Assembly: GCF_002157835.1 (NCBI RefSeq)
Contig: NZ_CP020809.1
Span: 682,001-746,000, forward strand
Length of the DNA stretch: 64,000 bases
Source of the DNA: Mycobacterium dioxanotrophicus
GTDB taxonomy: Bacteria > Actinomycetota > Actinomycetes > Mycobacteriales > Mycobacteriaceae
Direction of reading: 5' to 3'
The position numbers and the translations under genes were made by a program. Under the pieces are notes generated by a model. That model made no database searches, was not told the origin of the DNA, and saw nothing but the letters and a program-made list of their open reading frames with translations. Positions 19,871-61,058 of the stretch are shown here, piece after piece (the first letter of the stretch is position 1; each line of letters starts with the position of its first letter).

Positions 19871-20936
19871 GGCGCCAGCCTAACGAGCCCCGTCAGGCCG
19901 AACAACCGTATCTGCGGGTAAAACTCCGGCATTTCTCCGCAGGCACGGCAACGGTGTGTCGCTTGGGATCATCCGAAGGCTCTGCAGCGCCGCCTCGGCG
20001 TCGTGGGCGGGCCCGCCGCCGGGCGGGCCCAGCCGGACTCGGTCAGGACCGCGGAGTTCATCCGTAACCCCGTCGGCTGGTTAACCAAGATCGACGGTGG
20101 TGACCGGAAAGTCGTGCAGGAAGTACAGTCGCGAGGAGTGTGAACGGCGGCTCCGACCGCGCTGTGCGCCGCAGTCCGGCCGCGTCCCGGCATACCGGGT
20201 CCGGTTGAGTCGAGATGCGCTGTGGTGCATGATCAATGAAGCTGTGCGACAGCCCACACTGTGGCGCGGGGCACATCCATGCGCGGCTGTGTCCCAAGGC
20301 ACACCGCCCGAGGGTGGATCAGTGCCCAGTCGCGGCGCAGCGGGATGCCGTAATCCGCCAATCGCGATCTTGTGATAATCGAATCATGTTGTCCACCAAG
20401 CAAATTGGTGACAGTTACGCCGCGTGCCAGCCTGCGTCACCGACGGAAACCGACCCCCGCTGGGCCGTCCTCGACTCGCTTCTGACGCGATAAGCGTTGG
20501 TGCACAATATGATCCACTCATATCAGAACTCTCGAGGTGGTCCCAGCCGGCGGCCGTCACGGGCTGCACATTGTTTGCTGGCGACGCTCGATGGGGTCCG
20601 TCGGGAGGGGTCTGGCGACGCGATTCGAGCCGGTGGGCGGGCGGCCTCCGGCGGGCCTCGCGGGTCGTTGTGTCACCGGCGACCGGCGGGTCCGGTGATT
20701 GTGGCTAAACCCAAGGTCAGGCCCGTCTACGTCGGGCCGGCGGGCGCTGTGCTCCCCGTAGACTGGCAGGCGCCCACGTATATCAAACGGTGGCCGGCCA
20801 CCCGCCGAATCCCCCGCGCTTGGAGCTCCGGCGGGCGGCGGAGAAATTCCCTTGCCCAACGCTCTTGCTCAAACGTTTCGGCGGGTGTTTACTAGCGGTA
20901 TACGAAGATTCCTACCACGAGACAAGGTGCATAAAT
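19871..20936. other. 1.07-kb non-coding stretch at the left boundary of the methylotrophy island
   Basis: No frame here reads like a known protein, and none shows consistent mycobacterial codon bias. Contents I can point to are an inverted repeat at 20390-20413, a short one around TATGATCCACTCATA (20508-20522), and the gmaS promoter/leader near the right end. It may be decayed sequence left where the island joined the core genome. Confidence 0.5.
20390..20413. promoter_or_regulatory. Inverted repeat TGTCCACCAA-N5-TTGGTGACA upstream of gmaS
   Basis: Arms pair with a single unpaired base (TGTC-CACCAA against TTGGTGACA). It lies 520 bp before the gmaS start in otherwise empty sequence. The TTGGT/ACCAA halves recall GntR/FadR-type operators, and such a regulator is encoded at 41.2 kb; binding is a guess. 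Confidence 0.35.
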
Positions 20937-22253
20937 ATGTCCCCTGACCTCGAACTTGCTACCCTGGCTGAACAGTCAGGAACGAAGTTCATTCTCGCAA
21001 TGTTTGTTGACTTGCGAGGGAAGCCCTGTGCCAAGCTGGTACCGGTCGAAGCCATCGACGAACTTACCAAGGAAGGCGTCGGCTTCGCCGGTTACGCCGC
21101 CGGGGCCATGGGGCAGGAGCCTAAAGACCCCGATCTGATCGCCGTTCCCGATCCGGTGTCGTTCACCCCGATCCCCTTCGTCAAGGAAGGGCTGGCGCTG
21201 GTCCACTGCGACGTTTACGTCGAAGGCAAGCTGTGGCCGTACGCCCCCCGCAACATCCTCAAGGCCATGATCAAGCGCGCCGCCGAAGCCGGCTTCGAGC
21301 CGTGGATGGGCGCTGAGGTCGAGTACTACCTGCTCAACCGCGACGCTGATGGCACGCTGCACACCGCGGACAAGAACGACCTGGCCGCGAACCCCTGTTA
21401 CGACGTGCGTGGCCTGACCCGTATGTACGACCACCTCTCGGGCATCTCCAAGGCGATGAACCAGCTCGGCTGGTCCAACTACGCCAACGACCACGAAGAC
21501 GGCAACGGGCAGTTCGAACAGAACTTCCAGTACGCCGAAGCTCTCGTCACCGCCGACCGCGTCGTGACGCTGCGCTACCTGCTGGCGATGAGCGCCGAAG
21601 AACGCGGCATGATCGCCACCTTCATGCCGAAGCCGTTCTCGGACCGCACCGGCAGCGGTCTGCACTTCCACATCTCGCTGACCAGCGGCGGCACCCCGGT
21701 GTTCCCGACCGACGAGGATCCCCGTGGCCTCGGTCTGTCGGAGACCGCCTACCACTTCATCGGCGGCATCCTGGAACACGCGAGTGCCCTGCAGGCTGTT
21801 ATCGCGCCGACCGTGAACTCTTACAAGCGCACTCGTGCGGTTGCGGTGACATCGGGTTCGTCCTGGGCGCCGAACAGCCCCACCTTCGGTGGCAACGACC
21901 GCACCCACTACATCCGCATCCCCGACAACCAGCGCATCGAGCTGCGCGGCGGTTGCGGATCGGCCAACCCGTACCTCGCGGCCGCGGCCGCGATCGGTGC
22001 TGGCCTTTACGGTGTCGCCAACAAGGTGGACCCGGGCGAGCTGGGGGCGCAGGCTACCCACCGCCCCGCGCTGCCCGCGACGCTGATTCACGCCGTGGAG
22101 ACGCTGGAGTCCGACCCGGTGATGATGGAGGTTCTCAACGCAGCCGGTGATGGTGTGGCCGAGTACTTCACGAACCTCAAGCGCGATGAGTTTTTCGCGT
22201 ACCACAGCCAGGTTAGTTCCTGGGAAATCGATCAGTACCTGACGGCATTTTAA
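20937..22253 (+). CDS. gmaS: Gamma-glutamylmethylamide synthetase (type III glutamine synthetase-like)
   Basis: 438 residues, the GlnT/GmaS length. Glutamine synthetase catalytic signatures are present: the metal-binding GAEVEYYLL, DHEDGNGQFEQNF, GSGLHFHISL, and the substrate/arginine region NQRIELRGG. It ligates methylamine to glutamate with ATP to give gamma-glutamylmethylamide, the entry step of the N-methylglutamate pathway. This assignment rests on the immediate mgsABC neighbours, since GlnT-type sequence alone also fits a glutamine synthetase. ATG 20937 has a weak AAGG site; nearby in-frame starts upstream lack support. First gene of a four-gene operon. Confidence 0.87.
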   Translation: MSPDLELATLAEQSGTKFILAMFVDLRGKPCAKLVPVEAIDELTKEGVGFAGYAAGAMGQEPKDPDLIAVPDPVSFTPIPFVKEGLALVHCDVYVEGKLWPYAPRNILKAMIKRAAEAGFEPWMGAEVEYYLLNRDADGTLHTADKNDLAANPCYDVRGLTRMYDHLSGISKAMNQLGWSNYANDHEDGNGQFEQNFQYAEALVTADRVVTLRYLLAMSAEERGMIATFMPKPFSDRTGSGLHFHISLTSGGTPVFPTDEDPRGLGLSETAYHFIGGILEHASALQAVIAPTVNSYKRTRAVAVTSGSSWAPNSPTFGGNDRTHYIRIPDNQRIELRGGCGSANPYLAAAAAIGAGLYGVANKVDPGELGAQATHRPALPATLIHAVETLESDPVMMEVLNAAGDGVAEYFTNLKRDEFFAYHSQVSSWEIDQYLTAF

Positions 22254-22268
22254 GAAGGGAGACCAACA

Positions 22269-23165
22269 ATGTGCGGAATTGTGGGGCTGCATCTGCGCAA
22301 CCCCGAACTGTATCCGAGGCTGGGCGAACTGCTCACCGGGATGTTGTGCGAAATGTCCGACCGCGGAATGGATTCAGCGGGTGTGGCCGTCTACGGCGAC
22401 CCCAACTGGACGCCCGCCGGACAGGGCGCCGTGTCGCTGCTGGAGATTGACGCCCCGGCTGACGAGGTTGCGGCTGCCGTCAGTGAAAAGGCGGGCGTCG
22501 CCGTCAACGTGCGCATCCTCGATGCGACCTACCTGTTGACCGCTGCGATCGACTCCGACGCGCTGCTCGCCGCTGCTCGCGAGGCCCTCCCCAACGCGCT
22601 GGTCGTCGGCTTCGGCTCCGACCTCGCCGTGCTCAAGGGCGTCGGAGCTCCGCGGACCCTCGCGGAGGCATGGGGCTTGCCGAAGGCTCAGGGTTGGCAG
22701 GGTGTGGGGCATACCCGCATGGCCACCGAGTCCGCGGTCACCCCGGCCGGCTGCCACCCCTACGCGGTGGGCACCGGTCAGTGCCTGGTGCACAACGGCT
22801 CGTTCTCGAACCACGCCACCGTGCGCCGGGATCTGCGCCGCGAAGGCGTGACCTTCGACAGCGAGAACGACACCGAGGTGGGCGCCCGTTTCGTGGCACA
22901 CCAGCTCGCCCAGGGTCGTGACGTCGAAACCGCGCTGAAGGAACTGTGCGCAACCTTCGACGGGTTCTACACCCTGCTGGTGTCGAACCATGACTCGTTC
23001 GCAGTCGTGCGCGACGCGATCTCGTGCAAGCCTGCCGTGATCGCCGAGACCCCCGACTGGGTCGCGATGGCGAGCGAGTACCGCGCCCTGGCACATCTGC
23101 CGGGTGTCGAGAACGCAAAGATCTGGGAACCGGAGCCCGAGGTGGTGTACGCATGGAGCCGTTGA
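22269..23165 (+). CDS. mgsA: N-methylglutamate synthase subunit A (class II glutamine amidotransferase domain)
   Basis: 298 residues, starting MCGIVGLHLRN: Cys2 is the N-terminal nucleophile of class II amidotransferases. GVGHTRMATESAVTPAGCHPY and LVHNGSFSNH are the usual glutamine-binding loops, and a second NDTE element follows. In N-methylglutamate synthase this domain takes the N-methylated amide (gamma-glutamylmethylamide) in place of glutamine. Good GAAGGGAG ribosome site; 15 bp after gmaS; overlaps mgsB by 13 bases. The three glutamate-synthase-like domains are separate polypeptides, as in MgsABC. Confidence 0.9.
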   Translation: MCGIVGLHLRNPELYPRLGELLTGMLCEMSDRGMDSAGVAVYGDPNWTPAGQGAVSLLEIDAPADEVAAAVSEKAGVAVNVRILDATYLLTAAIDSDALLAAAREALPNALVVGFGSDLAVLKGVGAPRTLAEAWGLPKAQGWQGVGHTRMATESAVTPAGCHPYAVGTGQCLVHNGSFSNHATVRRDLRREGVTFDSENDTEVGARFVAHQLAQGRDVETALKELCATFDGFYTLLVSNHDSFAVVRDAISCKPAVIAETPDWVAMASEYRALAHLPGVENAKIWEPEPEVVYAWSR

Positions 23166-23836
23166 CATTCGACCTGGAGAAGACGCCGCTGCGGGAGGTC
23201 AACACCGCCCTGCATGCAGCGGATCTGTCCGGCGAGTTCCTCATCAAGAACCCGGCCGGGGCGCACAACGTCGCGGTTGGTGTCAATGCACCGGTGAAGA
23301 TCACGGTTGACGGACACCTGGGCTACTACGGCGCGGGTATGAACCAGCAGGCCGAGATCACCATCAACGGAAACGCCGGCACCGGTGTCGCCGAGAACAT
23401 GATGAGCGGCACCGTGTGGGTCAAGGGCAACGCCTCTCAGTCCGCGGGTGCGACCGCGCACGGAGGCCTGCTCGTGATCGAGGGCAACGCCTCGGCACGG
23501 TGCGGTATCTCGATGAAGGGCGTCGACATCGTGGTGGGCGGCAGCGTCGGCCACATGAGTGCCTTCATGGCGCAGGCCGGCCGCCTGGTCATCCGCGGCG
23601 ACGCGGGTGAAGCGCTCGGTGACTCGATCTACGAGACGCGAATCTACCTGCGCGGCAACGCCGCATCACTGGGCGCCGACTGTATCGCCAAGGAGATGCG
23701 GGCCGAGCACCACGAGGAGCTCGCCAAGTTGCTCAAGGCGGCAGGGTTCGAGGATGACGACACTGCCTCCTACACGCGGTACGGGTCTGCCCGCAACCTC
23801 TACCACTTCAAAGTCGACAACGCCGGAGCATACTGA
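23153..23836 (+). CDS. mgsB: N-methylglutamate synthase subunit B (GXGXG beta-helix domain)
   Basis: 227 residues from ATG 23153. The central ~140 residues are a right-handed beta-helix with repeated glycine turns (GHLGYYGAGMNQQ, NGNAGTGVAENM, KGNASQSAGAT, EGNASARCGIS, GDAGEALGDS), the GXGXG domain of glutamate synthases. It provides the structural scaffold between the amidotransferase and FMN domains. The stop overlaps the mgsC start (TGATG). Confidence 0.9.
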   Translation: MEPLTFDLEKTPLREVNTALHAADLSGEFLIKNPAGAHNVAVGVNAPVKITVDGHLGYYGAGMNQQAEITINGNAGTGVAENMMSGTVWVKGNASQSAGATAHGGLLVIEGNASARCGISMKGVDIVVGGSVGHMSAFMAQAGRLVIRGDAGEALGDSIYETRIYLRGNAASLGADCIAKEMRAEHHEELAKLLKAAGFEDDDTASYTRYGSARNLYHFKVDNAGAY

Positions 23837-25170
23837 TGAGTCAAACAGACGACGACCGGGCCAGGCTCGGCCTGCGTGAGTCCGCCACCTTTGACCGGAC
23901 CACCATCGCCGCCATCCAACAGGCCGCCAACACGGGTATCTACGACATCCGTGGCTGGGGCGCCAAGCGCAAGCTGCCGCACTTCGACGACCTGCTGTTC
24001 CTTGGCGCGTCGGTTTCGCGTTACCCCCTCGAGGGCTACCGCGAGAAGTGCTCCACCAACATTGTGCTGGGCGACCGGTTCGCGAAATACCCGCTGCAGC
24101 TTGACATTCCGATCACCATCGCAGGCATGAGCTTCGGTGCGCTGTCCGGACGTGCCAAGGAGGCCCTGGGCCGTGGCGCCAGCGCGGTGGGCACCTCCAC
24201 CACGACTGGTGACGGTGGTATGACTCCGGAAGAGCGGGGTCAGTCGAAGCACCTGGTGTACCAGTACCTCCCGTCGCGCTACGGCATGAACCCCGATGAT
24301 CTGCGTAAAGCGGACGCCATCGAGGTCGTGCTCGGACAGGGCGCCAAGCCGGGTGGCGGCGGCATGCTGCTGGGTCAGAAGATCTCCGAGCGTGTTGCCG
24401 GCATGCGTACCCTCCCGCAGGGTATCGACCAGCGTTCGGCGTCGCGGCATCCCGACTGGACCGGCCCGGATGACCTGGCCATCAAGATCGCGGAAATCCG
24501 TGAGATCACCGACTGGGAAAAGCCGATCTACGTCAAGGTGGGTGCTACCCGCACGTACTACGACGTGAAGCTGGCCGTCGCTGCCGGTGCCGATGTGGTC
24601 GTCGTCGACGGCATGCAGGGCGGTACCGCGGCAACCCAGGAAGTGTTCATCGAGCACATCGGTATTCCTACGCTGGCCGCGATTCCGCTGGCAGTGCGGG
24701 CGCTGCAGGAGCTGGGCATGCACCGCAAGGTGCAGCTCATCGTCTCCGGCGGCATCCGCAACGGTGCCGACGTGGCCAAGGCGTTGGCGCTGGGCGCCGA
24801 CGCGGTGGCGATCGGAACCGCTGCGTTGATCGCCCTCGGCGACAACGATCCTCGGTACGCCGCTGAGTACGAGAAGCTGGGCAGTGCTGCCGGTTTCTAC
24901 GACGACTTCCAGGACGGGAAGGATCCGACGGGCATCAGCACGCAGGATCCCGAGCTGGCCGCCCGCTTCGACCCCGTCGAGGGTGGGCGCCGGTTGGCGA
25001 ATTACCTGCGGGTGCTGACCATGGAACTCCAGGTCGTCGCACGCGCTTGCGGTAAGGCTCACGTCAACCACCTGGAGCCCGAGGACATGGTGGCCTTGAC
25101 GGTCGAGGCTGCGGCGATGTCTCGCATCCCGCTCGCCGGGACCTCGTGGATCCCGGGAACGGCCTACTGA
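23836..25170 (+). CDS. mgsC: N-methylglutamate synthase subunit C (FMN-binding glutamate synthase domain)
   Basis: 444 residues. The FMN-barrel signatures of glutamate synthase are present: ITIAGMSFGALSGRAKEALGRGAS, GQGAKPGGGGMLLGQKI, VKVGATRTYYDVKLAVAAGAD, DGMQGGTAATQEV and VSGGIRNGADVAKALALGADAVAIG. It should transfer methylamine released from gamma-glutamylmethylamide to 2-oxoglutarate. In ordinary GltB the segment before GI(A/S)TQDPEL carries the Fe-S cysteines; here it is FYDDFQDGKDPTGISTQDPEL with no cysteine. A perfect hairpin terminator follows. Confidence 0.9.
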   Translation: MSQTDDDRARLGLRESATFDRTTIAAIQQAANTGIYDIRGWGAKRKLPHFDDLLFLGASVSRYPLEGYREKCSTNIVLGDRFAKYPLQLDIPITIAGMSFGALSGRAKEALGRGASAVGTSTTTGDGGMTPEERGQSKHLVYQYLPSRYGMNPDDLRKADAIEVVLGQGAKPGGGGMLLGQKISERVAGMRTLPQGIDQRSASRHPDWTGPDDLAIKIAEIREITDWEKPIYVKVGATRTYYDVKLAVAAGADVVVVDGMQGGTAATQEVFIEHIGIPTLAAIPLAVRALQELGMHRKVQLIVSGGIRNGADVAKALALGADAVAIGTAALIALGDNDPRYAAEYEKLGSAAGFYDDFQDGKDPTGISTQDPELAARFDPVEGGRRLANYLRVLTMELQVVARACGKAHVNHLEPEDMVALTVEAAAMSRIPLAGTSWIPGTAY

Positions 25171-25509: not shown

Positions 25510-26157
25510 GTGACCGAAGCCCCGCTTTTGCGTAACGTCTCGGGCATCGCGAGGGATCGCGGTCCGGACGAGTCGATCGAGGAACTCGAACTCGAGACGG
25601 CTATTGCCAGGAATGTCCGGCAGCTGCGCCAGCAGCAGGGGCTGACCCTCGGCGAAATGGCTGCCACGGTGGGCATCTCGAAAGCGATGCTGTCCAAGAT
25701 CGAAAATGCCCAGACCTCGTGCAGTCTGTCGACGCTGTCGCTGCTTGCCAAAGGCCTGGATGTGCCCGTGACGTCGCTGTTCCGCGGTTCGGACATGGCA
25801 CGGCCTGCCGCATTCGTCGAAGCCGGCACCGGCGCACGTATCGCGCGGGACGGCACGCGCGAAGGGCACGAGTATCAGCTGCTGGGCTCGCTGCGCGGCG
25901 AGCACAAGCGGCTGGAATGCCTGCACGTGACGCTGACGGGCAAGAGCCGCACCTATCCGCTGTTTCAACACCCGGGTACCGAATTCATCTACATGCTCGA
26001 AGGCGTGATGGATTACAGCCACAGCCGCTCGGTGTACCGGTTGCACCCCGGCGACTCGCTGTTGATCGACGGCGAAGGTACGCACGGGCCCGTGGACCTG
26101 ATTCAGATGCCCATCAGTTTCCTATCGGTGATCACCTTCCCGGATTCACACGTTTAG
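25510..26157 (+). CDS. XRE-family regulator with C-terminal cupin sensor domain
   Basis: 215 residues from GTG 25510. Residues ~33-90 are an XRE helix-turn-helix (NVRQLRQQQGLTLGEMAATVGISKAMLSKIENAQ). Residues ~110-210 form a cupin-2 barrel with FQHPGTEFIYMLEGVMDYSH and YRLHPGDSLLIDGEG. Such regulators sense a small ligand through the cupin. It directly follows gmaS-mgsABC on the same strand and is the best candidate to control it, but has its own promoter space. Confidence 0.88.
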   Translation: MTEAPLLRNVSGIARDRGPDESIEELELETAIARNVRQLRQQQGLTLGEMAATVGISKAMLSKIENAQTSCSLSTLSLLAKGLDVPVTSLFRGSDMARPAAFVEAGTGARIARDGTREGHEYQLLGSLRGEHKRLECLHVTLTGKSRTYPLFQHPGTEFIYMLEGVMDYSHSRSVYRLHPGDSLLIDGEGTHGPVDLIQMPISFLSVITFPDSHV

Positions 26158-26683: not shown

Positions 26684-26709
26684 TGATGGCGCTAAGTGAA
26701 AGTGCTCAG
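26684..26709. repeat. IS21 left terminal inverted repeat
   Basis: TGATGGCGCTAAGTGAAAGT and onward; pairs with the right end at 29334-29359 over the first 12 bases and again at the last CAG. Confidence 0.8.
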
Positions 26710-26830
26710 TCTCGCTAATTGAAAGTGCCCAGTTGGCAGCGGTGGTTCGGCGTGTCGTCGGACTGCTTGTCGGGGTTCTGCTCATCGTCAGCGGAGTTGT
26801 GTTTCCGCTGATGAATGGGAGGGCCGTCGT

Positions 26831-28189
26831 TTGCTGTCGCTGGAGGGTGATGTGGAAGCGCATGCGCTTCGGGAGCAGGGTTGGTCGATATCGGCGATCG
26901 CTCGCCATCTCGGGATCAATCGCCGAACCGTTCGGGCCTATCTGGCTGGGGAACGAGTACCCGGGCAACGCCAACGCTCTGAACCGCTGGTGATCGATCC
27001 GTTCGTCGAGTACTGCCGGATCCGCCTGGCTGACGATCCGCACCTGTGGGCCTCAACCCTGTTCGACGAACTCGTCGAGCTAGGTTTTACCGGCTCGTAT
27101 CCGTCGCTGACCCTGGCAATCCGAAACCTGGGGCTGCGACCGCATTGCGAGCCGTGTCAGTCGGTCAAGGGCCGCGACGTCGCGGTCATCGATCATCCGC
27201 CCGGGGTCGAGACTCAGTGGGACTGGGTCGAGCTGCCCGATCCACCAGCATCGTGGGCGGCTGACCGGCATGCCCACCTGCTGGTCGGGGCGTTGGCCCA
27301 TTCGAGCCGCTGGCGCGGGCGCTGGCCCGGCCGAGGACTTCGCGCACGTCGTGGAAGCGATCGAGGCGGTCAGCATCCGGTTGGGTGGGGTCACCCAGCG
27401 GTGGCGGTTCGACCGGATGGCCACGGTATGTCATCCCGAATCGGGCCGGATCACCGCGGCGTTCGCCGGGGTGGCCAAACACTACGCTGTCGCCGTCGAT
27501 GTGTGCCCGCCACGACGGGGCAACCGCAAGGGTGTGGTGGAGAAGTCCAATCACGCTGCCGCCCAACGCTGGTGGCGCACCGTCACCGACGACACCACGA
27601 TCGAGCAAGCCCAGGCGTCGCTGGACCGGCTGTGCGTGAAGCTCGACGGGCGCCGCCGGCGCCGCGACGGGCAGGCCACCACCGTCGGCGCCCTGGCCGA
27701 TGCCGAACCACTACGGTCACTGCCGACGGGTTCGTATCCGGCCGAGTTGACCGAACACCGCATCGTCACTCCACAAGCGTTGGTGTCCTGGCGGGGCAAT
27801 CAGTACTCGGTGCCGCCGGGCTGGCCGGGCCACGGTGACCGTCACCCACCGCCTGGGCTCTGACACCGTGCAATTGACCACGGCATCGGGAGCCGTTGTT
27901 GCCGCGCACCGCCGCGCGGTCGACGGCAGCGGCGCGGTGGTGCGCGATGCCGGTCACGTCGTCGCGCTCGAACAGGCAGTGCTATCGGGTTCTCGACGGC
28001 CAGGCCTTGCACTCATAAGACCCGGCGACCGCCCTCGGTGGCCGCCGTTGCCGAGGCCGCGCGGCTGCGTGGTGCCCCGGCGAACGATCCCGCCAGAAGG
28101 TAGTGATCGATCTGGCCGTCTATGCGGCGACCGCAGCACGGCTATCCGTTGTTCCCCAACACCATCCAACCGAACAGAACCAGGAGTAA
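26831..28189 (+). pseudogene. istA: IS21-family transposase IstA, frameshifted
   Basis: Start TTG 26831. N-terminal helix-turn-helix GWSISAIARHLGINRRTVRAYLAGE is intact, then TQWDWVELPDPP. After HSSRWRG (about 27320) the frame changes to continue as AEDFAHVVEAIEAV, RWRFDRMATVCHPESGR, FAGVAKHYAVAVDVCPPRRGNRKGVVEK. A second shift occurs near 27830 (SVPPG to TVTHRLGSD), and at least one more near 28000-28100 before AVYAATAARL. The original frame resumes at the stop 28187-28189. At least three indels, so no active IstA (DDE) can be made. Confidence 0.88.
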
Positions 28190-28193
28190 CCCC

Positions 28194-29002
28194 TTGAGCA
28201 AAACCGTCCCACAGATGAGCGAAGCCCGCCGATACCAACAACTCCGGGCACATCTGTCCTATCTGAAACTCGGCGACGCAGCCGAAGCGCTACCCCGCAT
28301 CCTCGATGCCGCCCGCGCCGAAAACCTGTCCCTGACCGCCGCTTTGGAGCGGCTGTTGGAGATCGAGGTCAACGCCACCGAAGCCCGCCGGCTGACCTCA
28401 CGGTTGCGGTTCGCCTGTCTGCCCGAACCCTGGACCATGGCCGATTTCGATTTCGCCGCCCAGCCCGGGGTCGACGCCAAACTGATCAACGACCTGGCCA
28501 GTCTGCGCTTCCTCGACGACGCGGCCAACGTGCTGTTCGTCGGCCCACCCGGGTCGGCAAGACCATGCTGGCCGTCGCGTTGGCCCGCGGCGCGGTCGAG
28601 GCCGGCCACCGGGTGTATTTCACCACCGCCGCCGACCTGGCGGCCCGCTGCCACAAAGCCGCCCTGGAAGGCCGCTGGCACACCTGCATGCGGTTCTTCG
28701 CCGGACCGAAACTGTTGGTGATTGACGAACTTGGCTACCTTCCGCTGCCCGGCGATGGGGCATCCGCGTTGTTCCAGGTGATCAACCAACGGTATCTGAA
28801 GTCGAGTACGATTCTGACAACCAATGTTGGGATCGCTGACTGGGCAACCGCTTTCGGAGACGCCACCGTCGCAGCCGCCATGTTGGACAGGCTACTGCAC
28901 CGCGCCACCGTGGTCGGTATCGACGGACCCAGCTACCGGCTGCGCAACCACCAAGCCACCGCCGAAACGATGCGTAAGGCGGTCGCCGCCCATGTCAGCT
29001 GA
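28194..29002 (+). pseudogene. istB: IS21-family helper ATPase IstB, frameshifted in Walker A
   Basis: Starts at TTG 28194 (ATG 28215 also possible) and reads QLRAHLSYLKLGDAAEALPR to VLFVGPPG; the next bases GGGTCGGCAAGACC lack one base relative to the expected GPPGVGKT codons, so the frame switches inside the Walker A motif. The rest is intact in the second frame: AGHRVYFTTAADLAAR, LLVIDELGYLPL (Walker B) and STILTTNVG. A single-base deletion inactivates the helper. Confidence 0.9.
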
Positions 29003-29291
29003 GACCCGTTCCTGCCAAGCCTGCTGGACCGAATTCACCGCCACCACACCGACCAAGATCTACTGCTCAGACCGCTGCCGCAAACACGCCTGGGAGCAAC
29101 GCAAACACAGCGACACCGCCGCCACCGTCACCGAGGCCCGGCCACCCGCCCCACAGCCGGCCGCCACCCGTTCCTGCCCGCATTGCGGCGAACCCATCAC
29201 CATCGTCGCTTTGCTGACCACTCCAGAAGCTGCCCGCCCCAGCACCCCCGGCGACGGCACAATCGTTCCCCTGCAACGACGAACCTGCTAA
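28992..29291 (+). CDS. Small zinc-ribbon protein carried by the IS21 element
   Basis: 99 residues from ATG 28992, overlapping the last 11 bases of istB. It has two CxxC-type zinc motifs: CQACWTEF with YCSDRCRKHAWEQRK (residues ~7-35) and CPHCGEP (~65-71). Such third ORFs occur after istB in some actinobacterial IS21 elements; the role is unknown. Confidence 0.65.
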   Translation: MSAETRSCQACWTEFTATTPTKIYCSDRCRKHAWEQRKHSDTAATVTEARPPAPQPAATRSCPHCGEPITIVALLTTPEAARPSTPGDGTIVPLQRRTC

Positions 29292-29359
29292 CCTTAGCCA
29301 CTCAAGCCAACTGGGCAATTTCGCTTAGCATCTCTGGGCAGTCTTCTTTAGCGCCATCA

Positions 29360-30022: not shown

Positions 30023-31222
30023 ATGTCTGAAACTCCCACCACGGCCGACGTCGTAATCGTGGGCGGCGGTTTGGAAGGCTGTTCCGCAGCCTGGTCGCTG
30101 GCCCAGCGCGGCATCACCGATGTCACGATCCTGGAGCGCGACACCGTCGGCTCGGGCGGCACGGGGAAGTCCTCCGGCGTCGTGCGCTGCCACTACGGCG
30201 TCAGTTCGCTGGCCGCCATGGCGACCCGCAGCCTCGAACTCTTCGAGAACGCCGAAGAGATCCTCGGTGAGGATGTCGGCTTCCACCAGACCGGCTACGT
30301 GGTTGGCGTGGGAGAGCAGAACGTCCAGGCCATCAAGGACTCGATGGCCGCCCAGCGCGCCGTCGGCGTGCGCACCGAGGACATCGACAAGTCCGAGGTC
30401 GCCAAGCTGTGGCCGGTTGCCGACCTGGAGCCCTTCGCCGCGTTCGCGTGGGAAGAGCGTGGTGGATACGGTGACGCCTACCAGACCGCGCAGGGCTTCG
30501 CTGCTGCTGCTCGTCGCAAGGGCGTCCGCCTGCGCCAGAGCACCACGGTCAGCGAGATCATCGTCGAGAACGGCAAGGCCACCGGCGTGCGCCTGACCGA
30601 CGGCAGCGTCGTCTCGGCCAACACGGTCGTCCTGGCGGCCGGCCCCTGGTCGGTCGCGCTGCTGGCTCAGCACGGCATCGACCTGCCCATCACGGTGCAC
30701 CGCGAGCAGATCGTGCTCCTCGATCCGGGCCAGGACCTCGGCAAGGTTCCGGTGTTCTCCGACCTGGTGTCGCTGCAGTACGTGCGTCCCGAAGGCTCCG
30801 ACGGCCAGATCCTGTTCGGTAACTCCGCGCTCGACGTTCTGGAGCCGGCCGACCCTGACAACTACCTCAACCGCGCCGACGACGACTTCATCGACCTCAC
30901 GGTCGACAAGATCGGCACCCGGTTCCCCGGCCTGGAGAACCCGTCGATCGCATCGACCTACGCCGGTTGCTACGACGTGACCCCGGACTTCAACCCCGCG
31001 ATCTCGAAGACCGACGTCGACGGCCTGATTGTCGCCGCTGGCTTCTCCGGTCACGGATTCAAGATCGCCCCCGCGGTCGGCAAGCTCATCGCCGACCTGG
31101 TTGTGGACGGCACCAGCTCCGACGCCGACATCCCGGCCGAGGACTTCCGCCTGTCCCGGTTCGCCGAAGGCAAGCTGCTGAAGAGCCCCTTCCCGTACAT
31201 CGGCGCGGGGCAGATGCGCTAA
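30023..31222 (+). CDS. FAD-dependent amine oxidoreductase (DAO family); candidate N-methylglutamate dehydrogenase/oxidase
   Basis: 399 residues. The N-terminal FAD motif is VVIVGGGLEGCSAAWSLAQRG, followed by SGGTGKSSGVVRCHYG, the region where sarcosine oxidase beta-like subunits contact flavin. The C-terminus carries GLIVAAGFSGHGFKIAPAVGKLIADLV, the second FAD-binding signature. This is the sarcosine oxidase/DadA fold, which oxidises N-methyl amino acids. None of the other subunits of the known four-subunit N-methylglutamate dehydrogenase (mgdABCD) is here, so this single chain is the only enzyme in the island able to turn N-methylglutamate into glutamate and formaldehyde. Function is inferred from context; sarcosine or dimethylglycine are alternative substrates. 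Confidence 0.8.
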   Translation: MSETPTTADVVIVGGGLEGCSAAWSLAQRGITDVTILERDTVGSGGTGKSSGVVRCHYGVSSLAAMATRSLELFENAEEILGEDVGFHQTGYVVGVGEQNVQAIKDSMAAQRAVGVRTEDIDKSEVAKLWPVADLEPFAAFAWEERGGYGDAYQTAQGFAAAARRKGVRLRQSTTVSEIIVENGKATGVRLTDGSVVSANTVVLAAGPWSVALLAQHGIDLPITVHREQIVLLDPGQDLGKVPVFSDLVSLQYVRPEGSDGQILFGNSALDVLEPADPDNYLNRADDDFIDLTVDKIGTRFPGLENPSIASTYAGCYDVTPDFNPAISKTDVDGLIVAAGFSGHGFKIAPAVGKLIADLVVDGTSSDADIPAEDFRLSRFAEGKLLKSPFPYIGAGQMR

Positions 31223-36726: not shown

Positions 36727-37190
36727 GCCTCCTCGGCGTGGGCGGAGTAGCCCAGGTACCCGCCGAGACGGCGAGAGAAGTGGTCAGTGGTGGCCAGGAC
36801 GATGCCGCATCCCTGGCAGGGCACCTCGACGGATCCGTGCACACCAGTGGTGGTGGTGCCGACGTGGCAATGGCCGCAGAACACGACCCACGGGCTGTTC
36901 TCGTCGGGCAGCAGGGTGATCTCTTCGTCCACCATGCCGCAGTCCTGGGCGGCGGCCGAGGCGGCGTGGACGTCGACTGCGGGGCCGGCGAGTACGAGAC
37001 GGGCGCCGACGCATGACCGTTCGAGCGCAGACCTGAGCTCGGCGAGGCTTTCCGGGTTGGCAGAAGTGAAATGGAGGTCGTATCTGGGCCGGTCACCGGT
37101 GTCCCGACCCGCGGTGTCACCTGTGTCGCCGAACGACGCACAGATGACACCGCGGAAACCCGGCTCCAACGACATAGACGTGGAACGCAT
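36723..37190 (-). CDS. dmmA: Dimethylamine monooxygenase subunit DmmA family (C-terminal zinc ribbon)
   Basis: 155 residues. The C-terminal half contains VVFCGHCHVGTTTTGVHG followed by VEVPCQGCGIVL, two CxxC pairs of a zinc ribbon with an embedded conserved His. The first ~90 residues are an alpha/beta domain. NCBI-style naming for this family is DmmA, an essential but poorly understood subunit of dimethylamine monooxygenase. AAGGA ribosome site before ATG 37190. Translationally coupled to dmmB. Confidence 0.82.
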   Translation of the reverse strand: MRSTSMSLEPGFRGVICASFGDTGDTAGRDTGDRPRYDLHFTSANPESLAELRSALERSCVGARLVLAGPAVDVHAASAAAQDCGMVDEEITLLPDENSPWVVFCGHCHVGTTTTGVHGSVEVPCQGCGIVLATTDHFSRRLGGYLGYSAHAEEA

Positions 37191-43650: not shown

Positions 43651-43820
43651 GGCTTTTCTACCCCTGTAACAAAGAATCAACTCACCCGCCGCGGTACTCG
43701 TCTGCACACGTGTTCGCTCGGCGGCGCGTTCCTCCCTGGGAAGATCCCGCCCGCTGACCCATTCGCGCAACCGTGAGGTCGACGACGCCGTACCGCCTTG
43801 TCGAGAGCTGGAATTCCACC

Positions 43821-49977: not shown

Positions 49978-50000
49978 CCCCTCAACTGCATGGCGGCCGG

Positions 50001-50039
50001 CGCGCCGCGGGACCGCCCACTGGGCCGTCCCGCGGCGCG
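50001..50039 (+). terminator. Hairpin between tkt and tal
   Basis: Perfect 13-bp GC stem CGCGCCGCGGGAC / GTCCCGCGGCGCG, 13-base loop, no U-tract. May limit read-through or stabilise the upstream mRNA. Confidence 0.7.
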
Positions 50040-50088
50040 ACCGCAAACCAGCCAACGTATTCGATATTTGAAGGAAGAAGCAGAAGCG

Positions 50089-51210
50089 ATGAGCAACGCA
50101 ACCCCCACTGCACAGCTTTCCGGAGCCGGCGTGTCGATCTGGCTCGATGACCTGTCCCGCAACCGCCTCGACAGCGGTTCGCTGCAGAAGCTGATCGACG
50201 AGAAGAGCGTCGTCGGTGTCACCACCAACCCGTCGATCTTCCAGGCCGCGATCACCACCGGTAACGACTACGACGCGAAGATCGCCGAGCTCGCCGCTCG
50301 CGGTGCCAACGTCGAAGAGACCATCTTCGAGATCACCACCGCCGACGTCGCCGACGCCTGCGACCTGTTCGCTCCGGTCGCCGCCGCCACCGACAACGTC
50401 GACGGACGCGTCTCCATCGAGGTCGACCCGCGCCTGGCGTGGGACGCCGCCGGAACCATCGCCGAGGCGAAGAACCTCTACAAGAAGGTCGCCAAGGACA
50501 ACGTCCTGATCAAGATCCCGGCCACCCGTGAGGGCCTGGAAGCCATCAGCGCCGTCCTGGCCGAGGGCATCAGCGTCAACGTGACCCTGATCTTCTCGCT
50601 GGAGCGCTACCGCGCCGTGATCAACGCCTTCCAGTCGGGCCTGGAGCAGGCCCAGAGCAACGGCCACGACCTGTCGAAGATCCACTCGGTCGCGTCCTTC
50701 TTCGTCTCCCGCGTCGACACCGAGATCGACAAGCGCCTCGACGCGCTCGGCACCGACGAGGCCAAGGCGCTCAAGGGCAAGGCCGGTGTCGCCAACGCCC
50801 GCCTGGCCTACCAGGTCTACGAAGAGCTCTTCAGCACCGAGCGCTGGGCACTGCTGGCCAAGGCCGGCGCCCGCCCGCAGCGTCCCCTGTGGGCCTCGAC
50901 CGGCGTGAAGGATCCGGCCTACCCGGACACCCTGTACGTCACCGAGCTCGTCGCTGCCAACGTGGTCAACACCATGCCGGAGAAGACCCTGGACGCCACG
51001 TTCGACCACGGCGTCGTCACCGGTGACACCATCACCGGCAAGTACGACGAGGCGAAAGAGGTGCTCAGCGCCATCGAGGGCCTCGGCATCTCCTACGATG
51101 AGGTCGTCGCACTGCTCGAGTCCGAAGGCCTGGACAAGTTCGTCGCCAGCTGGAAGGACCTCCTGGCCGACGTCGAGGGTGCCCTCGCGTCTGCCAAGAA
51201 GGGTTCCTGA
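50089..51210 (+). CDS. tal: Transaldolase
   Basis: 373 residues from ATG 50089 (AAGGAAGAAG ribosome site). The Tal signatures are [28 protein letters not shown] and the Schiff-base Lys in [16 protein letters not shown], followed by [13 protein letters not shown]; length and C-terminus match actinobacterial Tal. It transfers a dihydroxyacetone unit in ribulose-5-phosphate regeneration. Confidence 0.96.
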
Positions 51211-51265: not shown

Positions 51266-51346
51266 GGCAACCGGGCCGCGGCGCGATCCGTGGCCGAAGG
51301 CCCGATCTCGCATGCCCTGACTGACCGCTATCGAAAGGCAGACACC

Positions 51347-52027
51347 ATGTCCGCTTCACCGCAGAAATGCTGTATCAACCCCAGCATCCTCTCGGCCGAC
51401 TTCGCCAACCTCGAAGCCGAGCTGGCTCGCATCAGCAACGCTGATGCTGCGCACGTGGATGTCATGGACAACCACTTCGTCCCGAACCTGACGATCGGTC
51501 TGCCGGTTGTTCAGCGCTTGCAGAAGGTGAGCCCGATTCCGCTGGACGCCCACCTGATGATCGCTGACGCCGACCGCTGGGCACCCATGTTCGCCGACGC
51601 CGGTCTGGACTCGGTGACGTTCCATGTCGAGGCGGCCGTCGCGCCCATCAAACTCGCCCGCGAACTTCGTGCGCGCGGGTCGAAGGCGGGCATGGCCCTG
51701 CGCCCGGCCACCCCGGTGGAGCCCTACCTGGACATGCTCTCCGAACTGGACATGCTGCTGATCATGACTGTGGAGCCGGGCTTCGGCGGGCAGGCCTTCC
51801 TGGACGTCACGCTGCCCAAGATCCGCCGGGCCCGCGAGGCGGTCGACGGTTCCGGCGTGAACGTGGCCATCCAGGTCGACGGTGGTGTCACCGAGGAGAA
51901 CATCGCCCGCGCCGCGGAGGCCGGTGCCAACATCTTCGTGGCCGGATCTTCGGTGTACGGGAAGCCGTCCCCTGAGGAAGCCATCGAATCGCTGCGCAAG
52001 AACGCGCAGCTCGCATTCGCCAAATAA
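51347..52027 (+). CDS. rpe: Ribulose-phosphate 3-epimerase
   Basis: 226 residues from ATG 51347 (GAAAGGCAG ribosome site). [57 protein letters not shown] and [12 protein letters not shown] cover the metal ligands and catalytic Asp pair of the barrel. It interconverts ribulose-5- and xylulose-5-phosphate. Confidence 0.96.
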
Positions 52028-52063: not shown

Positions 52064-52537
52064 ATGCGCGTTCATATCGCAACCGACCACGCCGGCATGG
52101 AGCTCAGCTCCCACCTGATCGAAGCGCTGTCAGCCAAGGGCTACGAGATGGTGAACCACGGGCCCGCGGTCTACGACGCCGAGGACGACTACCCGGCTTT
52201 CTGCATCAACGCCGCACTCGCGGTGGTGGCCGACCAGGCCGCCGGCGTGGACGCCCTCGGCATCGTGCTTGGCGGCTCGGGCAACGGTGAGCAGATCGCT
52301 GCGAACAAGGTCAAGGGCGTTCGCGCGGCCCTGGTGTGGAACCTCGACACGGCGAAACTGGCCCGCGAGCACAACGACGCCAACGTCGTTGCGGTGGGTG
52401 GCCGCCAGCACTCCGTCGAAGAGGCCACCGAACTGATCGAGGCGTTCCTGGCTGAGCCGTTCAGCAACGCCGAGCGCCACGTCCGGCGCATCGGCAAGAT
52501 CGCCACCTACGAAACCACCGGCGAGGTCGTCGAGTAA
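52064..52537 (+). CDS. rpiB: Ribose-5-phosphate isomerase B
   Basis: 157 residues. RVHIATDHAGMELSSHL, GIVLGGSGNGEQIAANKVKGVRAALVWN and ANVVAVGGRQHS are RpiB signatures; the catalytic Cys of E. coli RpiB is replaced (GGSGNGE), as in mycobacterial enzymes. It links ribose-5- and ribulose-5-phosphate. It follows rpe with a 36-bp gap. Confidence 0.95.
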   Translation: MRVHIATDHAGMELSSHLIEALSAKGYEMVNHGPAVYDAEDDYPAFCINAALAVVADQAAGVDALGIVLGGSGNGEQIAANKVKGVRAALVWNLDTAKLAREHNDANVVAVGGRQHSVEEATELIEAFLAEPFSNAERHVRRIGKIATYETTGEVVE

Positions 52538-52624: not shown

Positions 52625-52709
52625 GCTGCTAGGAACCCGACAATGGTCCGGTGCCTACGGCTTGGCCGAAGCTCGTTCCCGCCGACGAAAACTCAACACA
52701 GGAGGCAGC

Positions 52710-53729
<1,020 letters not shown>

Positions 53730-55258: not shown

Positions 55259-55455
55259 ACTTTTGGACTCTTTTCGAATACGGCGCCTGGGTGCTGGCCG
55301 CGCTGGTCGCCGCCTGGATGCTTTTCGACGCGTACAAGGTCAGCCGCGATTACGACGAGGAATTCCTCGTGCACACCATTGAGGATCTCGGCGAGGACGC
55401 GCAATGGCAGCACTCGTCCGACGAGTCGGATGACATTGAAAGGCGTCAATCATGA
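55255..55455 (+). CDS. Small single-span membrane protein
   Basis: 66 residues. One hydrophobic segment (YGAWVLAALVAAWMLF) and an acidic C-terminal tail (EEFLVHTIEDLGED). ATGA overlaps on both sides, so it is translationally coupled to its neighbours; third member of the permease operon. No family recognised. Confidence 0.7.
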   Translation: MNFWTLFEYGAWVLAALVAAWMLFDAYKVSRDYDEEFLVHTIEDLGEDAQWQHSSDESDDIERRQS

Positions 55456-56873
55456 GCGAAGTCAGTACCGGTGGAGGCACCGAAGCGCTCACTCTGAAGA
55501 AGGTGCTCGGACCGATCCACATCTGGGGGTTGGGTGTCGGCATCGTTCTGGTCGGCGAGTTCATGGGCTGGAACTTCACGGTGGAGAAGGGCGGCCTGTA
55601 CGGCTCGCTCATCGCCTGCTGGTTCGTCGGCCTGCTCTACACCTGCGTCGTCATGATCAACTCCGAGGTCGCGTCGGCGATCCCGGCGGCCGGCGGTCAA
55701 TACGCCCAGGCCAAGCACTCGATCGGCCCGCTGATGGCATTCAACGTGGGGCTGTATCTCACCATGGCCTACACCATGCTGGAGGCCGCCAACGCCAACG
55801 TTCTCGGCGACCTGCTCACCACGATGTCGGGGTTGCTCGGTAACAAGCAGCACCTGTCGGCCTATCCGTTCGCCGTGTTGGCAATCCTGCTGCTGGCATT
55901 GCTGAACTACCGCGGCGTGCTGGCGACCCTGTCGGTCAACTTCATCATCACCGGGTTCGCCTTCTTGACCATCATCGCGCTGTTCATCGGCGTCTCCGGC
56001 TGGGACATGGGCACGCAGTTCAGCGCTCTCGTCTCATCGGCCGATGCCGGGCTGCCCTACGGGTGGATCGGCGTGATCGCCGCATTCCAGTTCGGTATGT
56101 GGTTCTACCTCGGCATCGAGGGCACCGCGCAGGCCGCGGAGGAGTGCCGCTCACCAAGCCGGTCGATCCCGCTCGGCAGCCTGGCCGGCATCATGACGCT
56201 GATCATCGCGGCGAGCCTCACCTGGTACCTCTGCGCATCTCTTCTGCCCTGGCAGTACCTGGGCACGTCGATCACACCGCTGTTCGACGCCGCGCAGCTC
56301 ACCCATTCCGGGGTGCTGGTCTGGCTGCTGTTCCTCGGCACGCTGGCGGCAACCCTCGCGTCGGCGAACGGTTGCATCACCGACTCCTCCCGGTCATGGT
56401 TCGCGATGAGCCGCGACCGTTACCTGCCGGAGTGGTTCGGCGCCGTGCACCCGCGGTACCGGACGCCGTACCGCTCGATCCTGTTCCTGGTGCCGGTCGC
56501 GATCGCCTTCGCGATCCTTCCGCTGCTGCTCAACAAACCGACGCTGCTGTCGACCGTGATCACGTTCTCGATCCTGTCGGGTCTGCTGACCTACGCGTTC
56601 ATGGTGGTCAACATGCTGCGGTTCCGGAAGCTGTGGCCGATCGGCTCCATCAAGCGGGCCTACACGCTGCCGATGCATCCCATCCCTTCGATTGCACTGG
56701 CAGTGATCGCGGCGATCGTGTTCTTCGCGACCTACCTGGGCTACGGCACCACACTGATGTCGATCCTGGTGTTCTACTTGCTGGCTTCGGTGTGGTTCGT
56801 TCTGCGGCGGTTCAAGTACGTCGATCGGGACGCTGAGTTCACCGCGCCGTTGCCGCGTCCTCGAGGTTACTGA
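55452..56873 (+). CDS. APC-family permease, ethanolamine/amino-acid type
   Basis: 473 residues, about 12 membrane helices. The first helices (VLGPIHIWGLGVGIVLVGEFMGWNFTVEKGG) match ethanolamine/amino-acid permeases of the APC superfamily, as do GQYAQAKHSIGPLMAFNVG and MSRDRYLPEWFGAVHPRYRTPYRSI. It shares ATGA overlaps with three small membrane proteins before and one hypothetical gene after. Uptake of an amine or of ethanolamine-like solutes is probable. Confidence 0.87.
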   Translation: MSEVSTGGGTEALTLKKVLGPIHIWGLGVGIVLVGEFMGWNFTVEKGGLYGSLIACWFVGLLYTCVVMINSEVASAIPAAGGQYAQAKHSIGPLMAFNVGLYLTMAYTMLEAANANVLGDLLTTMSGLLGNKQHLSAYPFAVLAILLLALLNYRGVLATLSVNFIITGFAFLTIIALFIGVSGWDMGTQFSALVSSADAGLPYGWIGVIAAFQFGMWFYLGIEGTAQAAEECRSPSRSIPLGSLAGIMTLIIAASLTWYLCASLLPWQYLGTSITPLFDAAQLTHSGVLVWLLFLGTLAATLASANGCITDSSRSWFAMSRDRYLPEWFGAVHPRYRTPYRSILFLVPVAIAFAILPLLLNKPTLLSTVITFSILSGLLTYAFMVVNMLRFRKLWPIGSIKRAYTLPMHPIPSIALAVIAAIVFFATYLGYGTTLMSILVFYLLASVWFVLRRFKYVDRDAEFTAPLPRPRGY

Positions 56874-57831: not shown

Positions 57832-57842
57832 CGAAGCACTGA

Positions 57843-57909: not shown

Positions 57910-58935
57910 TCAGCCGAACAGGTATGCGGCTTCTTCGTAGCGCCGCTGCGGAACGGCCTTGAGGTTGCCCAGGGCCTCCTCGAAGCTCACCTGTTCGATC
58001 TCCGTGCCTTTCAGCGCGACCATGGTGCCCCAGTAGCCGGCCACCACAGAGTCGATGGCCGCCATGCCCAGCCGCGTGGCCAGCACCCGGTCGAAGGCCG
58101 AGGGCACACCGCCACGCTGGATGTGGCCCAGGATGGTGGCGCGGGTCTCGATGCCGGTGCGGCTTTCGATCTCGGGCGCCAGCTGGTCGGCGATCCCGCC
58201 GAGCCGGGGACGGCCGAAGGCGTCCAGCCCGCGCTCGGAGTGCGGGGACTCCATGTGTTCGGGCACAAACCCTTCGGCCACCACGACAAGCGGTGCACGC
58301 CCGCGGGAGTGAGCCCCCTTCACCCACTGGGTGATCTGATCGACGCTGATCTTCTGTTCCGGGATGAGGATGGCGTGGGCGCCGGCCGCCATGCCGGCGT
58401 GCAGCGCGATCCAGCCCGCGTGCCGGCCCATCACCTCGGCGATGATGCAGCGGTGGTGCGATTCGCCCGTGGTGCGCAGCCGGTCGATCGCTTCCGTGGC
58501 GATCTGCACGGCGGTATCGAAACCGAAGGTGTAATCCGTGGCGTCCAGGTCGTTGTCCACGGTCTTCGGGACACCGACGATCTTCAGCCCGGCGTCGGTG
58601 AGCCGCTTGGCGGCGGCCAAGGTTCCCTCACCGCCGATGGCGATGATCGAGTCGATGCCCAGCCGGTCCATGTGGCCTTTGATGACATCGGGCCCGCCGC
58701 CGTTCTCGAACGGGTTGGTGCGGGAGGTACCCAGGATGGTGCCGCCCTGCTTGGCGATGCCGCGGACCATGCTGCGCGGGATGTCGATGACGTCGCCCTG
58801 GACGACGCCGCGCCAGCCGTCAAGGAACCCAACGAATTCGAGACCGTGGACGGCAATGCCTTTGAGCACGGCGGCGCGGATGACCGCGTTCAGACCGGGG
58901 CAGTCGCCACCGCTGGTGAGGATTCCGATTTTCAT
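57910..58935 (-). CDS. pfkA: 6-phosphofructokinase (ATP-dependent, actinobacterial type)
   Basis: 341 residues. ILTSGGDCPGLNAVIRAAV is the ATP loop; IAIGGEGTLAAAKRL and VGVPKTVDNDLDATDYTFGFDTAV the catalytic loop; EVMGRHAGWIALHAG and LGHIQRGGVPSAFDR the substrate sites. GGEGT keeps the Gly at the E. coli Gly104 position, which favours ATP over pyrophosphate even though Lys follows in PKTVDND. It makes fructose-1,6-bisphosphate for the aldolase, completing the FBP branch of RuMP. Confidence 0.93.
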   Translation of the reverse strand: MKIGILTSGGDCPGLNAVIRAAVLKGIAVHGLEFVGFLDGWRGVVQGDVIDIPRSMVRGIAKQGGTILGTSRTNPFENGGGPDVIKGHMDRLGIDSIIAIGGEGTLAAAKRLTDAGLKIVGVPKTVDNDLDATDYTFGFDTAVQIATEAIDRLRTTGESHHRCIIAEVMGRHAGWIALHAGMAAGAHAILIPEQKISVDQITQWVKGAHSRGRAPLVVVAEGFVPEHMESPHSERGLDAFGRPRLGGIADQLAPEIESRTGIETRATILGHIQRGGVPSAFDRVLATRLGMAAIDSVVAGYWGTMVALKGTEIEQVSFEEALGNLKAVPQRRYEEAAYLFG

Positions 58936-59735: not shown

Positions 59736-59746
59736 CGCGCATCGGG

Positions 59747-60109: not shown

Positions 60110-60167
60110 GGGGTTCAGCTTTCTGACGTCTGTGGGGAACGGGGTGAGTGGGCCGGTGAAGGCCTGG

Positions 60168-60764
60168 TCACTCGAGGTTGGCGTGGCGCGTCCAGAGTTC
60201 CTCGGCCTCGACGTCGGTGTGATCCCACAGCGACTGGAACACGGCCTCGGTGACGACGAACAGCACCTGCTCGAAAAGGGATCCGGCGTACTGGCGCGAA
60301 ATGTGCGAGCCGTGATCGGTCTTCTGCGCGGCGGGGATGATCACCAGGGCGTCGGCCAGACCGGCCAGCGGCGAGTTCGGATCGGTGGTGAAGGCGGCGA
60401 TGCGCGCCCCGGCCTTCTTGGCCGTTTGGGCGGACTTGACCACACCGGAGGTGGTGCCCGATCCGGACGCCACGAGCAGCAGGTCACCGTCGGCGATCGC
60501 CGGGGTGGTGGTGTCGCCCGCGACGTGCACGTTCAGGCCGAAGTGCATCAGCCGCATCGCGGCCATGCGCAGGACCAGCCCGCTGCGGCCCGCGCCGGCC
60601 ACGAACACTCGACCGCCCCTGACCAGGTGGCGAGCCAGGATGGCCACCTGCTCTTCGTTGACTTTGGACGTGGTGCTCGCGATCTCGTCCCGAACCAGGG
60701 CGATGTTCTTGGTGATGCTGTCCCGGGTTACTTCCGAGGCGGGGTAGGTCTTGGCGGCGGACAT
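60168..60764 (-). CDS. hxlB: 6-phospho-3-hexuloisomerase, copy 2
   Basis: 198 residues from ATG 60764 (GGATGAGGAGAAGAG ribosome site). Same SIS domain as copy 1 and almost identical after residue ~49; the first ~48 residues differ (KTYPASEVTRDSITKNIA). No hxlA accompanies it; two cupins follow instead. Its promoter-leader is duplicated at 29.4-29.5 kb. It presumably raises isomerase capacity or serves under a different signal. Confidence 0.94.
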   Translation of the reverse strand: MSAAKTYPASEVTRDSITKNIALVRDEIASTTSKVNEEQVAILARHLVRGGRVFVAGAGRSGLVLRMAAMRLMHFGLNVHVAGDTTTPAIADGDLLLVASGSGTTSGVVKSAQTAKKAGARIAAFTTDPNSPLAGLADALVIIPAAQKTDHGSHISRQYAGSLFEQVLFVVTEAVFQSLWDHTDVEAEELWTRHANLE

Positions 60765-60828
60765 GATTCTCTTCTCCTCATCCAGAGGTGGGACCTGAAT
60801 ACACATCGTCCTGTCATTCGCGGGTGGG

Positions 60829-60873
60829 AGGAACGCCAATTTGGGATGGTTTGATCTACCCGTTTGAGTAGGC
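60829..60873 (-). promoter_or_regulatory. Duplicated promoter element, copy 2, ahead of hxlB2
   Basis: 45 bp nearly identical to 29480-29523, including CTACCCGTTTGAGTAG. It lies 65-110 bp upstream of the hxlB2 start on the minus strand. The sequences between it and the ATG also align with those of copy 1. Confidence 0.65.
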
Positions 60874-61058
60874 GGTTCGGCCCATGCGTCGGTAGGTCGA
60901 CGAGCGCGCATGGGCACGTCGACCTGGCCGCCAAGGTGGTGGTGAGCTGGGAGCTTCCTGATGTTTGCCGGTGTCAACCACCCCGGCGCGGGTAGGCCCG
61001 TGCCGGGGTCGAATCGAGCGGCCGCCGGCTACCCGCCGTCACGGCAGGCGCTGCGCGG

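Follow-up and report, generated by a model that had tools for sequence, protein, structure and literature searches.

Which enzyme completes the oxidation of methylamine in actinobacteria is a question raised by a gene island of Mycobacterium dioxanotrophicus. The window analysed here is the 64,000-base stretch from 682,001 to 746,000 of NZ_CP020809.1, the largest contig of the 8.08-Mb genome (GCF_002157835.1), and island positions are those of the window. Gene calls and protein family scans against curated cut-offs place the island genes between 20,937 and 60,764. A sequence-only reading of this DNA had listed genes for dimethylamine oxidation, the N-methylglutamate route and the ribulose monophosphate (RuMP) cycle, and all these classes are indeed found in one stretch, most of them above their cut-offs. 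The island is real and rare, and it was previously described: PMC5023230 (2015) describes this set of genes for Mycobacterium sp. 141 and 155, both growing on methylated amines, so that the joined island was dropped as a novelty in itself. What appears new is a proposal well supported by gene context: the last amine-oxidation step would be the work of a single-chain flavoprotein of the DAO family. The enzyme of this final step is in actinobacteria either unassigned or, as argued below, misassigned.

In the proposed pathway, a DmmABC-type haem N-demethylase would convert dimethylamine into methylamine and formaldehyde, GmaS and MgsABC would load methylamine onto glutamate to give N-methylglutamate, and the FAD enzyme encoded at 30,023-31,222 would return glutamate and formaldehyde, alone replacing the four-subunit MgdABCD of Proteobacteria. 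The island proteins scanned include no folate-binding GcvT protein, and formaldehyde would therefore probably be released free and fixed by HxlA/HxlB. The products of tkt-tal-rpe-rpiB-fba-pfk may rebuild the acceptor, and those of zwf-opcA-gnd could oxidise part of the carbon to CO2. We give a probability of about 70% to this reading of a mosaic methylotrophy island leading from dimethylamine through N-methylglutamate and a single-chain flavoprotein to the RuMP cycle; the genes and their context are present in the window, and from these the activities, the flavoprotein's role and growth are predicted.

The family scans agree with most of these steps. The DmmA-family protein and the PF11927 haem subunit score above their cut-offs, the latter matching the solved haem-dependent oxidative N-demethylase 5lte; their reductase partner, whose gene shares 4 bases with each neighbouring gene, reaches no NCBIfam cut-off, though it passes those of Pfam PF22290 and Fer2. 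GmaS matches the solved glutamate-methylamine ligase 9qur, and its gene context suggests methylamine rather than ammonia as substrate. Domain make-up and gene order identify the three-gene MgsABC synthase. HxlA, tkt, tal, rpe, rpiB, fba and pfk products score above cut-offs, as do both HxlB proteins: the hxlA/hxlB pair of the sequence-only reading is present, with two copies of hxlB (42,283 and 60,168) beside one hxlA. Its oxidative branch holds for zwf and gnd, OpcA staying at 216.8 bits under a cut-off of 256.25, and its "self-contained" RuMP cycle is too strong a term: a scan limited to island proteins showed no pgi, 6-phosphogluconolactonase or FBPase.

The case for the flavoprotein is built on position and co-occurrence. 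Among 397 genomes drawn from the order, mgsC was retained in 37 (four of 41 initial genomes, whose matches reach only 38-40%, were left out) and the flavoprotein in 32, with 30 of the 37 mgsC genomes carrying it. At the 36 mgs loci fetched from this draw, a homologue with 49-76% identity lies directly 3' of mgsC on the same strand in 24; another DAO protein (26-29%) takes this slot in four, and one with 24-26% stands one gene beyond in two. Of the seven mgsC genomes that lack the flavoprotein, six therefore have a divergent DAO type, such as the protein encoded at L135 (10254-11339), and the seventh is G263. By Pfam, 22 of 24 aligned proteins (that of the window, 22 mgsC neighbours and the genome's own SoxB) belong to DAO, the remaining two not being counted. 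Two mgsC neighbours that passed a GxGxxG filter, at loci L119 and L175, were ruled out as DAO proteins, being FAD_binding_3 and M20 proteins; M20-type amidohydrolase-like genes adjoin the mgs operons of both loci and of L146. A 621-residue protein joining MgsC and DAO (P0111) was likewise rejected as a fusion: its linker resembles neither family by eye, and it probably reflects a frameshifted gene call, which documents no more than adjacency. One locus of sp. 141 (L176, 1-2454) holds two flavoprotein copies tail to tail, 62% and 97% identical to that of the window.

The flavoprotein is what the sequence-only reading had called an N-methyl amino-acid oxidoreductase; it is a single 399-residue protein, and the window holds no MgdABCD-like A, D or G matches. 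Its score against the SoxB family TIGR01373 is 165.1 bits (cut-off 529.45), as compared to 605.1 for the genome's own SoxB, and it has Ala152 at the position of a SoxB histidine, which we take to be the one binding FMN. Its structure model reaches a pLDDT of 82.5, the input being the window protein and 46 rows, all at least 74% identical, of a homologue search listing the best 120 of 3289 matches. Among the titles and abstracts listed in literature searches, which did not extend to subscription papers, none reports a single-chain N-methylglutamate dehydrogenase. If the enzyme is a single chain, its expression would be far easier than that of a heterotetramer, the annotation of many genomes would be corrected, and it would fit free formaldehyde release for RuMP assimilation.

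The alternative comes from PMC5023230, whose Table 2 assigns N-methylglutamate dehydrogenase to a distant MgdA-D, leaving the dehydrogenase doubtful. Under this assignment a soxBDAG operon, present at 5.70 Mb here and also in sp. 141, would perform the last step, and the flavoprotein would oxidise sarcosine or another N-methyl amino acid. In the window's genome this operon stands with sdaA and glyA, purU adjoining; SoxB, SoxD and SoxA pass their family cut-offs and SoxG fails (122.2 vs 143.95). Such a purU, sdaA and glyA neighbourhood is presumably the usual setting of sarcosine oxidase. The one SoxA-type gene found in sp. 141 lies in an sdaA-GntR-glyA-soxBDAG array with 86-98% gene-by-gene identity to the 5.70-Mb operon. 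This array would presumably correspond to the MgdA-D of PMC5023230, and what is described there as MgdA-D is probably an ordinary purU/sdaA-glyA-soxBDAG sarcosine oxidase operon. At E 1e-70, a SoxA/MgdC-type match occurs in 18 of 44 genomes searched and in 12 of the draw's 37 mgsC genomes; it is absent from the other 25 and from 21 of the 30 genomes having both mgsC and the flavoprotein. Moreover, soxBDAG occurs in none of 43 mgs loci, and neither these loci nor the window contain a match to the genome's SoxA, SoxD or SoxG. We therefore consider a distant soxBDAG-encoded dehydrogenase unlikely.

Several observations nevertheless count against the flavoprotein as the dehydrogenase. A SoxA gene is present in the window's genome and in six of the seven named genomes searched, and N-methylglutamate might be a substrate of the sox complex. 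For five of the 36 loci the flavoprotein gene stands at another place in the genome, G263 (mgsC 57%) has only an opposite-strand DAO gene at its mgs locus, and two genomes carry the flavoprotein without mgsC. In the window itself, the gene lies 4.85 kb from mgsC, behind a regulator and an IS21 element. Finally, DAO enzymes take many substrates, and the proposed role is drawn from context.

Whether amines would serve as a carbon source is a separate matter. The mgs route alone exists without RuMP assimilation, since hxlA is absent from 35 of the 37 mgs-bearing relatives, and the island might thus mainly provide nitrogen from amines and detoxify formaldehyde. Yet the island brings its own, second set of enzymes for regenerating the acceptor, and sp. 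141 and 155, with a similar island, grow on methylated amines according to PMC5023230, which makes such a use without growth on amine carbon quite improbable. The island could also be decaying, with the IS21 insertion and the relic of a methylamine oxidase gene (mao) marking a defunct route. This we regard as very improbable: besides these two elements the listed island genes keep open frames, the relic is common to M. brisbanense, M. aquaticum, strain 852013 and the methylamine grower sp. 141, and the IS21 element sits between genes, with a further 660 bases or so separating it from the start of the flavoprotein gene. Regulator and flavoprotein genes are 3.9 kb apart in the window, against about 1.05-1.2 kb for M. 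brisbanense, M. aquaticum and 852013; the IstB match (PF01695) covers only positions 3-103 of 238.

The combination of dimethylamine oxidation, N-methylglutamate route and RuMP cycle proposed by the sequence-only reading agrees with the gene content and is seldom seen, its claim to novelty falling to PMC5023230. The haem gene was found in 31 and hxlA in 10 of the 397 order genomes; the overlap with mgsC is 21 genomes for the former and two, at chance level (p 0.24), for the latter, and all three occur together in the window's genome only. Of 50 RuMP-bearing genomes, 12 possess mgsC, counted at genome level. In a genus set of 287 genomes, hxlA is found at E 1e-40 in 11 and with at least 91% identity in seven. 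The other four genes (67-69%) belong to short hxlA-hxlB blocks, the rest of the island being absent within the 20 kb fetched; these simpler RuMP loci include a luxR-like gene in three cases. Six genomes of the draw contain two haem-demethylase genes no more than about 3 kb apart, with 54-60% and 41-47% identity to that of the window, and such pairs lie close to the mgs operon at three loci.

Among the nearest relatives, the environmental isolate sp. 141 encodes an MgsC and a flavoprotein 98% and 97% identical to those of the window, its draft genome having the mgs genes on one contig and the RuMP block on another. M. brisbanense has HAD-to-fba and mgs-to-gnd stretches on two contigs, and HAD-to-opcA and mgs-to-flavoprotein stretches were seen in M. 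aquaticum and 852013; the contigs or loci of these three do not reach pfk or the second hxlB. In a two-contig genome (G589), one contig holds counterparts of nearly all parts inside some 45 kb, in a different order and without a mao match at E 1e-6. Within contig reach, dispersal of the genes among unrelated functions, which would have spoken against the sequence-only reading, was thus not seen in the nearest relatives. That reading had extended the island over 19,871-61,050; the genes do lie in one stretch, with the narrower limits given above, and the flanking host genes (modA and a TOBE/HTH gene, 18,690-19,870), kept next to gmaS in M. brisbanense, M. aquaticum and 852013, end at 19,870. 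It had omitted the IS21-family element (26,684-29,359) and the methylamine oxidase relic (34,328-34,438); three EutQ-type cupin genes (37,205; 59,273; 59,747) are also present.

The comparison of loci across Mycobacteriales and Arthrobacter, which had been suggested as a check, showed RuMP genes of Arthrobacter-like appearance beside a mycobacterial mgs operon. Identity of the island's tkt, tal, zwf and opcA to the housekeeping copies of the same genome is 64, 63, 70 and 46%, as compared to 84-88, 79-86, 84-91 and 70-79% for Arthrobacter-type loci (hxlA 80-94%; named hxlA loci were the best 80 of 285). Five loci have a methylamine oxidase match immediately past the haem gene, near full length in two and ending at the locus edge in three. 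The relic has 63% identity over 38 aligned positions (E 2.95e-06) to residues 96-132 of one near-complete copy (locus L079), a copper amine oxidase (PF01179, 525 bits). In quick trees with SH-aLRT support only, the GmaS-MgsA-MgsB cluster falls inside Mycobacterium, and the flavoprotein groups with Pseudonocardia and Actinomycetospora proteins. An approximately unbiased (AU) test rejects its grouping with other mycobacterial flavoproteins (p 0.0177), exploratory because the tested group was named after the tree had been seen. As the trees are quick ones, and as the island clade has two metagenome proteins labelled Mycobacterium for neighbours, they do not prove a Pseudonocardia origin.

The island thus looks like a mosaic of Arthrobacter-like RuMP genes with a mao relic, a mycobacterial mgs operon and a Pseudonocardia-like flavoprotein gene. 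The simplest story is that an Arthrobacter-like dimethylamine-RuMP block lost mao and joined a mycobacterial mgs operon that had a flavoprotein gene of foreign origin; the relic and the hybrid mgs/RuMP build suggest that one primary-oxidation module replaced another. We lean slightly towards a more general view, in which the N-methylglutamate route of Mycobacteriales ends in a single-chain flavoenzyme, two DAO subfamilies filling the slot, and in which the Pseudonocardia-like gene beside the Arthrobacter-like RuMP block stands in for the lost mao and the ancestral mycobacterial copy.

Features of the island from left to right (window positions; scores in bits, followed where given by the cut-off)
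Feature	Position	Strand	Evidence
gmaS, gamma-glutamylmethylamide synthetase, 438 aa	20937..22253	+	TIGR03105 583.7 vs 469.6; PDB 9qur 340.8; start read
mgsA, glutamine amidotransferase-like subunit, N-methylglutamate synthase	22281..23165	+	GATase_6 56.9 vs 27; conserved operon position
mgsB, GXGXG-domain subunit	23153..23836	+	PF01493 39.9 vs 32.5
mgsC, glutamate-synthase-like FMN subunit	23836..25170	+	PF01645 295.9 vs 20.4
XRE-cupin regulator, frequent mgs operon partner	25510..26157	+	HTH_3 50.4, Cupin_2 32.8; adjoins mgs in relatives
IS21-family element, istA/istB frames look broken	26684..29359	+	54-nt terminal inverted repeat 76%; IstB PF01695 76.4
Single-chain DAO-family flavoprotein, 399 aa, proposed N-methylglutamate dehydrogenase	30023..31222	+	PF01266 236.9 vs 27.9; context, co-occurrence
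gnd, 6-phosphogluconate dehydrogenase	31677..33131	-	NF006765 788.1 vs 413
HAD-IIA phosphatase-like protein	33273..34259	-	TIGR01460 126.7 vs 100.15
Copper methylamine oxidase gene relic, 37 codons	34328..34438	-	match to L079 copper amine oxidase
Haem subunit, putative dimethylamine N-demethylase/monooxygenase	34739..35734	-	PF11927 219.9 vs 25; PDB 5lte E 8.7e-91
Flavin/2Fe-2S reductase subunit of same Dmm complex	35731..36726	-	PF22290 DmmA-like_N 62.7 vs 33; Fer2 50.4 vs 21
dmmA-family subunit	36723..37175	-	NF041259 94.2 vs 60
EutQ-type cupin	37205..37591	-	PF06249 36.4 vs 21
APC permease, likely amine uptake	38923..40371	+	TMAO permease family 223, below cut-off 690
Cache/PDC sensor-like protein	40444..41166	-	PF22673 37.5 vs 27
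GntR-family regulator	41163..42152	-	family scan
hxlB copy 1, 6-phospho-3-hexuloisomerase	42283..42882	+	TIGR03127 243.5 vs 160
hxlA, 3-hexulose-6-phosphate synthase	42956..43579	+	TIGR03128 257.7 vs 200
zwf, start uncertain	43773..45377	+	TIGR00871 643 vs 400.6
opcA	45374..46303	+	TIGR00534, below cut-off
LuxR-type regulator	46327..47643	-	GerE 69.4 vs 23.5
tkt	47827..49977	+	TIGR00232 739.5 vs 682.25
tal	49990..51210	+	TIGR00876 450.8 vs 233.75
rpe	51290..52027	+	TIGR01163 252.3 vs 212.6
rpiB	52064..52537	+	TIGR02133 196.5 vs 168.2
fba, class II	52662..53729	+	NF006628 489.8 vs 297
APC permease, ethanolamine-permease-like	55452..56873	+	TIGR00908 207.4, below cut-off 381.75
pfk	57910..58935	-	TIGR02483 457.7 vs 430.55
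Two tandem EutQ-type cupins	59,273-59,635 and 59,747-60,109	-	PF05899 66.9, 65.7 vs 23.5
hxlB copy 2	60168..60764	-	TIGR03127 238.1 vs 160

EutQ-type cupins recur near amine-oxidation genes here and at many hxlA loci. A second amine-oxidation block lies outside the window, 8-16 kb right of the island end (locus L113, 5113-12720): it encodes a 402-residue DAO protein and a 794-residue protein that combines DAO and GcvT domains in the manner of dimethylglycine oxidase; the genes between them were read by eye as phosphotransferase-like and transporter genes.

Among known systems, the Proteobacterial N-methylglutamate pathway (gmaS-mgsABC-mgdABCD, in the Aminobacter layout given in PMC11446756) shares GmaS and MgsABC with the island, which lacks mgdABCD and has the single-chain DAO flavoprotein instead. 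The dmmDABC genes of Ruegeria pomeroyi (PMC5520151) encode similar DmmA-type, haem and reductase proteins, whereas their GcvT-domain DmmD was not found beside the dmm genes of the window. The dmm-mao-hxl RuMP islands of Arthrobacter and Cryobacterium also contain haem demethylase genes, eutQ, permease, cache, gntR, hxlBA, zwf, opcA and tkt-tal-rpe-rpiB; near full-length methylamine oxidase adjoins the haem gene at L079 and L094, where the window has a relic only and the mgs route in its place. Closest is the island of sp. 141 and 155, for which PMC5023230 lists Gma, MgsABC, a partial mao, EutQ, fba, rpi, rpe, tal, tkt, hps, hpi and pfk; the window adds the IS21 element near the flavoprotein gene. 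That paper credits Tmo with dimethylamine activity and lists a ferredoxin/flavodoxin-like gene as Tmd, which from its described features would be the Dmm reductase, and in the reading proposed here the flavoprotein, instead of the distant MgdA-D, would be the N-methylglutamate dehydrogenase.

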